This document shows positions 49,619 through 53,560 of a stretch of 64,000 nucleotides of DNA, piece after piece. Positions within the stretch are counted from its first letter, which is position 1. Every line of letters begins with the position of its first letter. The DNA lies in NCBI GenBank assembly GCA_026398615.1, contig JAPLSN010000014.1, positions 1 to 64,000 on the forward strand, given 5' to 3'. Made by a program: the position numbers and the translations under genes. Source of the stretch: Spirochaetota bacterium. GTDB lineage: Bacteria; Spirochaetota; Spirochaetia; Treponematales; UBA12059. A model generated the notes under the pieces. The model did no database searches. It saw nothing but the letters and a program-made list of their open reading frames with translations, and had not been told where the DNA came from.

Positions 49619-51274
49619 ATGCACAAGAGGAATTGGCTCGCGATGGCGGCCATGTTCATGGCGGTATGGAGTCTCGCGGCCGCGGACATCTGGGTGGCTG
49701 CGGGCGCGGCGGGCAGGGGCAAGGCCAGGGACGATCCCATGCCGGAACTCTGGAAGGCCGTGGAGCGCGCCGAACGCGGCGACGTCATTCACGTCGCCGA
49801 AGGCACGTACAACGGAAAGGCAGGATCCGGGCACTGGATCGCCAAGGTGCCGAACTTGACCATGGTCGGCGGGTACAGACAGGATTTTTCCGAGCGGAAT
49901 CCCTTCAAGTACTTCACGATCCTCGAGCGGGCCAAGGATTTCCGAGGCGACTGGACCGGGCTTCCCGAGGCGATCGTCTCCGGCGACGCGGATCACTCCA
50001 ACTTCACCATCGACGGCTTCGTCCTCAACTGCGAAAGCCGCAACGTGTACACGGAAAAGGGCCTCAAGCTCCAGGCGCCCACGTATTCGGGCATGGCGCT
50101 CCAGACCAACTCACCGAACACGAAGGTCCGGAACTGCATCCTCCTCAATCCCGCCGGCGACGGGATCTACTGCACCTGGCAGGGCTCCGACAACGAAGTG
50201 TCGAACTGCTTCATCGTGAACACCCTCTACGCCGCCATCGAGACGAGGTCGGCCCAGCCCGACTCCGTCATCAACATTAAGAACAACACGATCGTGTACG
50301 GCTGGTTCTACCCGACCAAGGGAGGCGCGACCGGCGTCTTCGTGGGCCGCCAGGGAACCACGATCGTCGATTCCAACGTGATCGCCTTCCTTCAGACCGA
50401 GGGCGGCGAGGACGGATTCGGCGTCAAGAACACCTTCGCGAACTTCGACACCGTCATGAAGAACAACGTCTTCTTTTCGCTCACCGGCGGCTACTACAAG
50501 TACATGGACAACAACAAGCAGAGCCTCATCGCCTGGAAACCCTCCGACCTCGAGGACCTGAACGACGAGGAATACTGCGAGGACTACACCCTCGCCGAAT
50601 CCGGCGGCAACCGGGAAGCCGACCCCGGGCTCGTCCCCGACAAGGACTTCGCCGGCAAGTTCTCCAATTACATCGCCTCCGAGCCCGGCAAGCTCAACAT
50701 GGACGCCATGAATGAATGGCGCAGGTCCATGGGGCTCCCGCTCCAGGCCGAGCCCGGCAAGGCCAGGGAAAATTACGCCTTTGCCTATCCGCTCAAGGCC
50801 GTGGTCCCGGGCCTGGGTTCGAAAATCAAGGGCGTGGGCGTCCGGATCGAAGGCCCCTTCGCAGCATACGCGTCGGAGGCAGCGGGCGCGAAGACGGCGA
50901 GCTACGAGGAAGCCGCCTTCGATTCGTTCAAGAAAGGCGGGGCAAATTCGAAGGGAACGAACGGCAAGGCGGTGAGTTTCCGCGCCGGCCTCGGCGACAA
51001 GAAGACGACCTTCGAGATTGCCGAAGCGACCTCGACCAACTACTACAGCGTGATGCTCCTCATCCCCGGCTCGACCTCCACCGCCACCCGCGACTTCGTG
51101 TACGGCTACATCCTCAAGGGATCGCCCGCGGACAAGGATTGGATCAAGCTGGAAGCCAAGAAGAGCGGTACATGGAAAGACGGCGTCGTGATCAAGGGGA
51201 AAGTCTATGACTTCAAGAACCAGACCTACCCCTACCCCGTCGGGGTGATCATCGACTCGATTTCTTCGAAATGA
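49619..51274 (+). CDS. Secreted right-handed parallel beta-helix protein
   Basis: 551 residues from ATG 49619 behind GGGAGG (an in-frame ATG at 49583 is less suitable). The signal peptide ends AVWSLAAADI. Residues 40-330 have beta-helix rungs with Asn ladders: GDVIHVAEGTYNGKAGSGHW, NFTIDGFVLNCESRN, TKVRNCILLNPAGDGIYCTW, NEVSNCFIVN, NIKNNTIVYGW, NVFFSLTGGYYKY. The C-terminal 150 residues form another beta domain (TSTNYYSVMLLIPGSTST). Such proteins are often polysaccharide lyases or surface binding proteins; no catalytic residue can be assigned by eye. Confidence 0.75.
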   Translation: MHKRNWLAMAAMFMAVWSLAAADIWVAAGAAGRGKARDDPMPELWKAVERAERGDVIHVAEGTYNGKAGSGHWIAKVPNLTMVGGYRQDFSERNPFKYFTILERAKDFRGDWTGLPEAIVSGDADHSNFTIDGFVLNCESRNVYTEKGLKLQAPTYSGMALQTNSPNTKVRNCILLNPAGDGIYCTWQGSDNEVSNCFIVNTLYAAIETRSAQPDSVINIKNNTIVYGWFYPTKGGATGVFVGRQGTTIVDSNVIAFLQTEGGEDGFGVKNTFANFDTVMKNNVFFSLTGGYYKYMDNNKQSLIAWKPSDLEDLNDEEYCEDYTLAESGGNREADPGLVPDKDFAGKFSNYIASEPGKLNMDAMNEWRRSMGLPLQAEPGKARENYAFAYPLKAVVPGLGSKIKGVGVRIEGPFAAYASEAAGAKTASYEEAAFDSFKKGGANSKGTNGKAVSFRAGLGDKKTTFEIAEATSTNYYSVMLLIPGSTSTATRDFVYGYILKGSPADKDWIKLEAKKSGTWKDGVVIKGKVYDFKNQTYPYPVGVIIDSISSK

Positions 51275-51304
51275 GCCCGGGATCGTCGAACAAGAAATAA
51301 GGAA

Positions 51305-51483
51305 GGTTTCACCACGGGGACACGGAGTTCACGGGGGGAATGCGAGGGAGGGAAGAGAGAGTTCCGGGATCCGGGAAGAGACAGGGAGAACGGCGATATT
51401 TTCCTCCTGATATCTTCTTCACTCCTTCATCTCCTCCTCGTCTCCCTGGCATCGCCTCGAGTCTCAGCACCCCGTGGTTTCCC
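51305..51483. repeat. Dispersed palindromic element, copy 1
   Basis: The left end GGTTTCACCACGGGGACACG (51305-51324) is matched by an inverted right end, CACCCCGTGGTTTCC (51469-51483), sharing CCACGGGG/CCCCGTGG exactly. The interior is purine-rich on the left half and pyrimidine-rich on the right half, so the RNA could fold into one long imperfect hairpin. It fills the gap between the beta-helix gene and the methyltransferase. It resembles the 'CACGGAG' intergenic elements seen in many bacterial genomes and is related to the copy at 53155. Confidence 0.65.
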
Positions 51484-51585
51484 CCGGAAAGCCGCACTCG
51501 GTCCCTGAGCTTCCTCACCGAGGCCGCGCCCGACGCGTCGACAGGCCACTTGCGGGTCCGCGGGAGGACGGGATACGGTACGGGT

Positions 51586-52812
51586 ATGAAAAGCGTTGCG
51601 AACGTGTGGCTCAAGCCGAGGGAAGAAGACCGCATCCTCCGGGGCCATCCCTGGATCTACGACAACGAGATCGCGTCGGTGGACCCCGCCGACCCGCCTC
51701 CGGGAACGGAGGTGCTCGTGCGCGGCTCCCGCGGGCGCTTGCTGGGATCCGGGCTCTGGAGCCCCGTTTCAAAGATACGCGTACGCCTCCACTCGACGGC
51801 CGACCGGCGTTGCGACGCGGCGTTCCTGCGTGAAACGATCGAACGTTCGGCCGCACGTCGGGAGAGGTTCCGGGATATCGCCCGGGATTCCTGCAGGCTC
51901 GTCTTCGGCGAAGCCGACGGCCTCCCCGGACTCATCGTCGATTCCTTCGTCGCCCCGGGGGGTTCCGGCTCCCCCGAAGCGGGCGGCGGGCGCTATCTTT
52001 CCGTGCAGATCCTCTCGGCCGGCATGGAAGCCAGGCGGGAAGCGATCGTCGCCGTCCTCGAGGATCTCTTCCGTCCCGCGGGCATCCTCGAACGCTCCGA
52101 CGCGCCCGTCAGGGGGCTCGAAGGCCTCGGGGAAGCGGTCGGAACGCTCGCGGGCACGGTCCCTGACCGCGTCCTCATCGAGGAGAACGGGTTGCTCTTC
52201 GCGGTGGACCTGGCTGGAGGGCAGAAGACCGGGTGGTTCCTCGACCAGCGCGACAACAGGGCAGCAGCAGCAGCCTACGCCCCGAACGTACGGGTGCTGG
52301 ACGTCTTCTGCAACGCGGGGGGGTTCGCGCTCTGCGCGGTGAAAGCCGGGGCAACATCCGTCACCGCCATCGACATTTCGGCGGACGCCATCGCCCAAGT
52401 GCGGGCCAACGCTGCGCTCAACGGCATGGAACGGCGCGTGGAAACCGCCGCGGCCAATGCCTTCGACTACCTCCGCGAGCTGGGCGCGTCGAACGAGCGC
52501 TACGGCATGATCGTGCTGGATCCGCCCGCCTTCGCCAAGAACCGCGCGGCCCTGCAGGGAGCGCGCCGCGGGTACAAGGAAATCAACCTACGAGCGCTGA
52601 AGCTGCTCGAACCGGGCGGTATTCTCGTCAGCTGTTCCTGCTCGTACTGGCTGGACCGGGACGAATTCCGCGGCATACTCGGGGAAGCCGCGGCCGACGC
52701 CCGCATCCGGCTCCATTTGCTCGAAAACCGCACGCAGTCCCGGGACCATCCGATCCTGCTCGGCTACCCGGAAAGCGAATACCTGAAATGCCTCATCGCG
52801 GAGCGGGAATGA
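51586..52812 (+). CDS. Class I SAM-dependent rRNA methyltransferase, RlmI-like
   Basis: 408 residues from ATG 51586. An N-terminal PUA domain (LKPREEDRILRGHPWIYDNE, PGTEVLVRGSRGRLLGSG), an EEHEE linker domain (RLVFGEADGLPGLIVDSF; GGQKTGWFLDQRDNR) and a C-terminal Rossmann methyltransferase: VLDVFCNAGGFALCAVKAGA, ITVSG-like VTAIDISADAIAQVRANA, catalytic motif MIVLDPPAFAKN and GGILVSCSCSYWL. The family methylates C5 of a 23S rRNA cytosine. Ribosome site weak. Residues 127-137 carry a Gly/Ser-rich insertion. Confidence 0.9.
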   Translation: MKSVANVWLKPREEDRILRGHPWIYDNEIASVDPADPPPGTEVLVRGSRGRLLGSGLWSPVSKIRVRLHSTADRRCDAAFLRETIERSAARRERFRDIARDSCRLVFGEADGLPGLIVDSFVAPGGSGSPEAGGGRYLSVQILSAGMEARREAIVAVLEDLFRPAGILERSDAPVRGLEGLGEAVGTLAGTVPDRVLIEENGLLFAVDLAGGQKTGWFLDQRDNRAAAAAYAPNVRVLDVFCNAGGFALCAVKAGATSVTAIDISADAIAQVRANAALNGMERRVETAAANAFDYLRELGASNERYGMIVLDPPAFAKNRAALQGARRGYKEINLRALKLLEPGGILVSCSCSYWLDRDEFRGILGEAAADARIRLHLLENRTQSRDHPILLGYPESEYLKCLIAERE

Positions 52813-52817
52813 GGGCC

Positions 52818-53111
52818 TCAACCGAGCGCCAGCACGCGCTTGACCGCTTCATCTGAAACGCCGAAGAGCCGCTCGAGATCGTCGGCTGTATTGTTGTTCG
52901 TCCCGGCCTTGTCGTTGTACGCGGCAATGACGAGTTCGGTCTCCCCGGCGTCCTTGGCGAACAGGGCCGAGGAAAATGCGGCGCGAAAAAAGCCCTTGTC
53001 GAGAAGTTCCCGTGTGGAAAGCTTCCCGTAGGAACGCCGGGCATTCGCGTCCACGACGGCGGACTCGCCGTCGAAGCCGATGATGAAAATGAAGTCTTCC
53101 CTGGAAATCAT
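52818..53111 (-). CDS. Hypothetical protein
   Basis: 97 residues from ATG 53111 (ATG 53120 alternative). It begins ISREDFIFIIGFDGESAVVD and ends GVSDEAVKRVLALG; RELLDKGFFRAAFSSALF is a likely amphipathic helix. No family is recognised. TAGGAT (53119-53124, minus strand) sits seven bases before ATG 53111, another candidate leaderless start. It converges with the methyltransferase gene. Confidence 0.6.
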   Translation of the reverse strand: MISREDFIFIIGFDGESAVVDANARRSYGKLSTRELLDKGFFRAAFSSALFAKDAGETELVIAAYNDKAGTNNNTADDLERLFGVSDEAVKRVLALG

Positions 53112-53154
53112 GGAACGCATCCTAGCATGAAACCGTCTCCCGAGTGCTACAGGA

Positions 53155-53385
53155 TTTTTTCACCAAGGCGGCACGAAAACACGGAGGATCAAGGGGTATC
53201 GGAACACGAAGGGTACGAAGGAAGAAGGGAAAGTTCACGAAGGAATCGAAGAACAAGAAACGGGGCAGGAATCGGAAATGAAATCGATCTGCCGTCATTT
53301 TCATTCCATCCTTTTACCTTCCCCCTTACCCTTCGTTTCCTTCGCGCTCCCTCGTGCCTCCGTGCCGCCGTGGTTGGTCTTTCCC
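53155..53385. repeat. Dispersed palindromic element, copy 2
   Basis: The left end TTTTTTCACCAAGGCGGCAC (53155-53174) and right end CGTGCCGCCGTGGTTGGTC (53361-53379) share GGCGGCACG/CGTGCCGCC exactly, plus CACGGAGG-type motifs on both arms. The interior again splits into a purine half and a pyrimidine half, with GGAAATGAAA facing TTTTCATTCC near the middle. Same design as copy 1 but about 50 bp longer. It lies between the 97-aa gene and rubredoxin. Confidence 0.7.
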
Positions 53386-53398
53386 GGCGGCATGCGAA

Positions 53399-53560
53399 TC
53401 AGTCGGCGGGACTGAAACTGTCCTTGCCGGCGCCGCACATCGGGCAGACCCAGTCCGCGGGCAACTGGTCGAACGGGGTTCCCGGCTGGATCCCGCCGTC
53501 GCCGTCGCCGACCGCCGGATCGTAGATGTAGCCGCACACGTCGCACATGTATTTCTTCAC
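53399..53560 (-). CDS. Rubredoxin
   Basis: 53 residues from GTG 53560 with AAGGAG upstream; the longer frame to 53611 is unnecessary. The two iron-binding knuckles are [15 protein letters not shown] (CxxCGY) and [13 protein letters not shown] (CPxCG). It is a one-iron electron carrier that reduces superoxide reductase and rubrerythrin in the cytoplasm. It is the last gene of the rubrerythrin - superoxide reductase - rubredoxin set. Confidence 0.95.

Follow-up and report, generated by a model that had tools for sequence, protein, structure and literature searches.

Hairpin repeats of a Spirochaetota genome and their association with GxxExxY nuclease-like genes

A 64,000-nt stretch of a Spirochaetota genome (contig JAPLSN010000014.1, positions 1 to 64,000; hereafter, the window) contains two palindromic sequences that raise a simple question: what are they, and what enzyme, if any, spreads them? 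The original prediction, drawn from the letters of the window, had taken them for two copies of one dispersed palindromic element with a purine left and a pyrimidine right half, and its placement of both proved right to about 10 nt.

Two palindromes and their genome-wide family

Copy 1 (positions 51307 to 51480, no strand assigned), delimited by pattern match and by alignment of its halves, is a short palindromic element that holds no GxxExxY ORF and starts 32 nt past the stop of an ORF ending at 51274. Sequence and half alignment place its left purine arm at 51311 to 51336 (plus strand), with the units CACGGGG-A-CACGGAG-TT-CACGGGG, and its right arm, which is decayed and ends in CACCCCGTGGT, at 51455 to 51479 (minus strand). 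Copy 2 (53158 to 53376, likewise with no strand assigned) is composite or nested, with an inner CACGAAGG/TACGAAGG unit pair lying within outer CACGGAG-type arms. Its left outer arm (53162 to 53188, plus strand) is 78% complementary to the right outer arm with which it pairs (53348 to 53374, minus strand), and its left inner arm (CACGAAGGGTACGAAGG; 53201 to 53233, plus strand) is 73% complementary to the right inner arm that pairs with it (53318 to 53350, minus strand). Both copies carry TTTCACCACGG-type inverted ends, reading TTTCACCACGGGGACACGGAG and TTTCACCAAGGCGGCACGAAA, so that terminal inverted repeats of the kind expected of a MITE are present; no target duplication was seen by eye beside either. 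The inverted arms of both are built, with the purine arm on the left, from 7-nt units of the form CRCNRAG (for example, CACGGAG), one per 8-9 nt.

To score each palindrome, the left half was aligned to the reverse complement of the right half. Copy 1 scores 20 and copy 2 scores 27, values reached by 3 of 3073 and 2 of 3071 background stretches of the same length elsewhere in the window, and by 2 and 0 of 2000 half-shuffles, respectively. The purine content of the left and right halves is 0.72 and 0.25 in copy 1 and 0.73 and 0.32 in copy 2, an asymmetry matched by none of the background window stretches (0/6144 and 0/6140), which bears out the predicted purine and pyrimidine halves. The two copies align with each other at a score of 30, compared with 18 for the best alignment elsewhere in the window. 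Copy 1 is the more decayed of the two, and its right arm is weak. Each had also been proposed to fold as one long RNA hairpin, and such a fold is possible; it is just moderately better than those of shuffled sequences (z = -1.80 for copy 1, with 12 of 200 shuffles as good; z = -2.85 for copy 2, with 2 of 200), no Rfam family matches it, and folding was set aside as main evidence. Known identities were tried as well. An rRNA intervening sequence (IVS) or another known Rfam RNA was rejected, as two tRNAs are the sole Rfam matches in the window and the genome is without an S23 match; an intrinsic terminator was rejected with 2 found in 51200-53500, one of them at 53360-53373, against 2.8 expected in shuffles.

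Allowing at most 3 mismatches, the end pattern has 29 matches at 26 distinct places across the genome (3.38 Mb), against none for the reversed control. At least one arm could be read by eye at 23 of these places (at L004 and L007 just the left one), and the other 3 (L017, L027 and L028) show no element around the pattern match. A looser two-unit pattern, CRCRRAGNCRCRRAG, gives 51 matches against 15 control matches in the same genome, and a strict palindrome scan of 31 places in it gives mixed scores of 8 to 22, which are left out of the evidence. Among 96 related genomes, 48 hold an end-pattern match; five genomes of the family, including this one, have 28 to 65 matches, and most of the order is at background. 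The family is large, the window copies are typical and partly decayed examples of it, and the description as a dispersed element holds; that there might be only two copies, unrelated after alignment, is contradicted both by the genome matches and by the mutual alignment.

Two features of copy arrangement were also observed. A BREX- or restriction-like island in this genome (L279, C38:113500-121500; gene names by eye) has, in several successive gene gaps next to a GxxExxY element of the same unit, either palindromes or single arms of the CGCAGAG type, and outside this island the genome has mostly CACGGAG units. A second small palindromic repeat, of the GAGGTCGCGCGCG...GAAAGCG...GCGCAG type, is nested in arms of CACGGAG elements in the related genomes G013 and G016 (L109 near 3500, L111 near 2325 and, in G016, L240).

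GxxExxY genes framed by the repeat arms

That GxxExxY genes might often start in repeats of this type was a lead put to the test here. The family (TIGR04256/PF13366) has a PD-(D/E)XK nuclease fold and is, to our knowledge, a curated family without a known role. TIGR04256 has 6 matches at 4 places in the genome, none of them on the window's contig in this whole-genome search, and on reading the flanks repeat arms were found at all four. Two of the genes are intact, one in CACGCAGAGGCGCAGAG arms (L030, arm score 17) and one in CACGCGAAGGCGCGAAG arms (L031, arm score 21), and a third is broken and lies in CACGAAGGGCACGAAGG arms (L033/L035; score 20 at L033), whereas slid-window controls for L030, L031 and L033 score 7-11. 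At the fourth place (L034/L032, C29:2644-4274) an ACAGGAT-unit palindrome stands ahead of a split gene, and the right side is not clear. The intact genes of this genome are those with CGCAGAG and CGCGAAG arms, and the broken ones those with CACGAAG and ACAGGAT arms. The gene at L034/L032 is split by an apparent IS3-type insertion sequence, and G014 and G007 have orthologous elements without an interruption. Upstream of the L031 gene, the GxxExxY reading frame runs on without a stop through the purine arm, whose translation would give a low-complexity N-terminus (P0001) and is likely to give rise to odd protein predictions in databases.

A scan of 84,980 species genomes returned at least 592 pattern stretches, at least 577 of them encoding GxxExxY relatives. 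The best 80 were taken, covering about 14 phylum-level groups; 9 lie too near a contig end, leaving 71 testable loci, and same-shape windows slid along the same loci served as controls (n = 619). Within this best 80 of at least 577, arm scores of at least 16 occur at 51/71 GxxExxY loci and 0/619 controls, and scores of at least 14 at 57/71 and 3/619; the median arm score is 20 within a locus and 8 across loci. A unit pair is present on both sides of the gene at 44 of these 71 loci against none of the 619 controls, and on at least one side at 59 against 14. A separate phylum set agrees on units (at least one side, 17/29 vs 7/160 controls; both sides, 10/29 vs 0/160), but an arm score of at least 14 is reached there by just 13 of the 29 GxxExxY loci, which weakens the reading, and several of its loci have other units (ACAGGAT, AAAGAT, ACGCAGAT) or, by eye, no arm.

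Genes for S23, a four-helix bundle, were compared in the same way. A CRCNRAG unit pair lies on at least one side in 1 of 27 and on both sides in none, yet inverted arms of other units score at least 14 in 8 of 27, compared with 0 of 146 controls. In the sets compared the CRCNRAG unit is specific to GxxExxY; the other-unit arms around S23 genes place the two families in a broader class of small genes enclosed by hairpin arms. The S23 arms (L066-L087, e.g. L073, L074 and L069) are tandem 7-9 nt units of other sequence, such as TAATGGGTAATGTG. Two GxxExxY genes, L046 and L052, stand beside a different long repeat (CACACGGATGAGTACGCTAACGCTGTGGCGAC...), which at L046 is present as direct copies on both sides. 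A phage-borne gene was considered and dropped, as a relative of one query occurs in 0/50,697 phage and 5/72,556 plasmid records.

Is the protein a plausible partner for a hairpin? The proteins scanned score 138-157 bits against TIGR04256 (cut-off 35) and 131-152 bits against PF13366 (cut-off 22), and among 50 sequences the GxxExxY motif and the catalytic D62 and E72-x-K74 are invariant, with Q86 and Y90 conserved in at least 90%. Among solved folds the closest to an AlphaFold model (pLDDT 96.2) is that of SSO0001 (Z 9.7, rmsd 3.3, 97 aligned), which we take to be Cas4, and archaeal Hjc Holliday junction resolvases follow at Z 6 to 7. Going by predicted model and residues, the protein has the fold together with the D, ExK and QxxxY (as we label the last motif) of Cas4/RecB-type PD-(D/E)XK nucleases. 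A sequence search of the PDB found no GxxExxY relative (best E 0.17), Foldseek gave no match at E <= 0.001, and the literature searched describes no enzymatic activity for the protein. An end- or junction-cutting nuclease would fit a hairpin substrate, though a fold shows no function.

Arm units co-vary with the protein and turn over at fixed sites

Across the 57 loci with scored arms (from the best 80 of at least 577), protein identity predicts common arm 6-mers (rho 0.27, 0/2000 permutations), and the relation persists among cross-phylum pairs of the same set (rho 0.26, 0/2000 permutations, 1390 pairs). Lysobacterales, two Chthoniobacterales and Desulfuromonadales loci, for example, have similar proteins (72-75% across phyla) and all have CGCGGAG arms; L159 and L160 are a counter-example, with proteins 74% identical and zero common arm 6-mers.

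The short copies of a genome can likewise be compared with its full elements. In G013 the GxxExxY element (L096, 2496-2975) has ACCACGGAGACACGGAG arms, which are the arms of that genome's many short copies. A CACGGAG-armed GxxExxY gene is present in 4 of the 5 family genomes with at least 28 matches (one of the four, in G016, is cut at a contig end, its arm lying within a 95% alignment to G013) and in 0 or 1 of the 18 others, the uncertain one being G001, which has mixed units; arms were assigned by eye. Fisher's test over these 23 family genomes gives 0.0006 or 0.003, values that are optimistic because the genomes are related. Intact GxxExxY genes whose arms match the short copies of the same genome were found in G013, G004 and G018. 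Against a simple pair model, the genome of the window has CACGGAG short copies but no intact CACGGAG-armed GxxExxY, and G007 has a single GxxExxY match with ACAGGAT arms, its short copies being of CGC and CACGAAG types.

That such elements recur in many phyla had been predicted, and among the genomes that hold 20 of the best 80 loci (of at least 577), 13 of 20 have at least 19 matches to an exact two-unit pattern and at least threefold more than to its reversed control. Sphingopyxis sp. HIX has 352 matches against 34 in the control, a Roseiflexus genome 235 against 7 and Nostoc sp. 106C 163 against 22. Five genomes (G360, G361, G364, G365 and G375) have a GxxExxY locus and at most 4 unit-pair matches, and in two more (G366 and G374) the matches are near control.

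To follow single sites, 18 G013 sites were compared with the congener G007, all judged by eye. The flanks of orthologous sites are 76 to 96% identical, and CACGGAG is kept at none of the 18: ten have a palindrome of other units in G007 (CGCGGAG, CGCAGAG, CGCCGAG and CACAAAG), one has a half element (CACGAAG) and seven show nothing clear. Where both species have a palindrome at an orthologous site, the units differ in both arms. The two arms at L098:258 begin in base-for-base alignment, TTCCACCACGGAGGCACGGAG vs TTCCGCCGCGGAGGCGCGGAT, with CAC changed to CGC in both units. Among the 50 matches listed for each genome (in G013 the first 50), with 100 units apiece, CACGGAG makes up 68 units in G013 and 4 in G007. 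Full elements behave similarly at one gene pair, where, by eye, the arms are CACAGAG (L226 and L233), CACAGAG/CACGGAG (L228), CACGGAG (L232) and, in the broken copy of the window's genome, CACGAAG (L033). GxxExxY elements occupy the same gene pair in several genera and therefore look vertical, not mobile. The comparison yielded no clean empty site: sites without a copy in G007 also differ in extra flanking bases.

Target duplications and a linked transposase had been named as features to look for, and neither was found. In 23 G013 copies the longest direct repeat has a mean of 4.1 nt, compared with 4.3 nt for mismatched flanks, so a classical MITE with target duplication was rejected, and no transposase was found as a partner; a linked nuclease family, GxxExxY, was found instead.

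A candidate nuclease-driven hairpin family and its alternatives

That a characteristic arm motif frames GxxExxY genes suggests that the enzyme spreads or maintains hairpin elements. We somewhat favor the reading that a REPIN-like hairpin family, mobile or self-propagating and served in trans by the GxxExxY nuclease, includes the window copies as short, non-autonomous members. The full form would consist of a purine arm containing 2-4 CRCNRAG units, a small GxxExxY ORF and a complementary pyrimidine arm, and the short form of both arms with a small loop. Beyond the association, co-variation, dispersal and turnover shown here, we infer that the nuclease would recognize the units of its own arms on a single-strand hairpin or cruciform and cut there, and that repair from another copy would then insert or overwrite an element. 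By such homing or gene conversion, at old copies and new sites alike, one unit type could sweep a genome; the short copies would use the enzyme in trans, as REPINs may use RAYTs, and copies would lie just behind stop codons because selection tolerates them there.

Could the hairpins instead serve the host, as transcript 3' ends or RNase III sites under selection, with GxxExxY landing there or using the purine arm as a ribosome-binding leader? Their position fits: in G013, 22 of 28 scored flanking gene ends lie at -1 to 20 nt from a copy (ORFs chosen by length) and only 1 of 23 copies stands between divergent genes, GxxExxY is in line with both neighbors at 36 of the 70 loci having both neighbors called, and palindromes persist at orthologous sites despite sequence change. 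Long rRNA hairpins (IVS) are known RNase III substrates (PMC4990558). Yet generic terminators would not be expected to share one unit class in many phyla or to be tied to one protein family, the T-tract signal around the window copies is 2 vs 2.8 expected in shuffles, and a parasitic look comes from nested copies and from copy numbers that are high and species-specific; we consider host function unlikely. If replication slippage and template switching perfected quasi-palindromes into tandem 8-9 nt units with no dedicated enzyme, then tandem units, arms that agree better within a locus than across loci (medians 20 and 8, best 80 of at least 577) and fast turnover at fixed sites would all follow; what such products do not predict is a CRCNRAG unit common across phyla, the framing of GxxExxY (44/71 vs 0/619) or the absence of that framing from S23 (0/27), and we regard this origin as distinctly improbable. 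It is also quite unlikely, in our view, that GxxExxY is a passenger whose nuclease gene, selfish or serving defence, sits safely on preexisting hairpins while these are moved otherwise (e.g. by an HUH transposase). The unrelated S23 genes framed by other-unit arms (8/27 vs 0/146 at a score of at least 14) speak for a passenger, as do the GxxExxY genes that adjoin restriction- or BREX-like genes (names by eye), but a passenger need not show the co-variation of protein and arm units across phyla.

A self-propagating family served by a GxxExxY nuclease has partial parallels among known systems, here compared through the portions of the sources available. REPINs are proposed to use RAYTs in trans (PMC3116915), and the likeness, as that text describes them, extends to many short intergenic palindromes, a linked enzyme gene that is single-copy and adjoins copies of its own flavor, several flavors per genome, clusters and nested copies, and inferred trans action. 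By the same account, RAYT is an HUH transposase beside the copies, whereas the enzyme here is PD-(D/E)XK nuclease-like and lies inside the arms, and the arms here are 2-4 repeats of a 7-nt unit with purine and pyrimidine halves; the enclosed gene matches only PF13366 in Pfam and so is not of the RAYT type (HUH, Y1 transposase). The 23S rRNA IVS with an S23 ORF, as far as the available text goes (PMC4990558), is also a small ORF in a long-stemmed hairpin recurrent at fixed sites, but the elements here lie outside rRNA and encode another protein family. The authors who describe the hupL MITE of Ca. Thiomargarita, a small inverted-repeat element, connect it with a PD-(D/E)XK_2 (YhgA-type) protein (PMC4853749); that nuclease belongs to Pfam PF12784, the element has 10-bp direct repeats at its ends, and the part of the article available describes no arms of 7-nt units. 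Geobacter multicopy sequences, whose authors note non-random insertion, comprise families of palindromes and of short direct repeats located in numerous intergenic regions within a single genus (PMC2996986, PMC2700814); the available portions of those two articles name no linked protein, and the comparison is by description, not sequence.

What is new here is the tie between hairpin repeats and GxxExxY. Our literature search, with subscription papers, preprints and supplements outside its reach, found no description of this link, and no explanation in print was found for CACGGAG/CGCAAAG-type repeats across many phyla. More tentatively, and with less conviction than for the window copies themselves, we raise the possibility of a new mobile-element class, in which a PD-(D/E)XK nuclease would recognize hairpin repeat units and spread the hairpin by break and repair without target duplication, overwriting older copies and driving one unit type genome-wide as the specificity of the enzyme shifts along; its range would take in at least a dozen phyla and leave out phages and most plasmids.

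With this tie, the role of GxxExxY and the origin of the repeats, two open questions, become one testable system, and cultured hosts such as Sphingopyxis and Nostoc have hundreds of unit-pair matches. For bacteria, arm units that switch throughout a species while their sites stay fixed would make an unusual example of concerted evolution.
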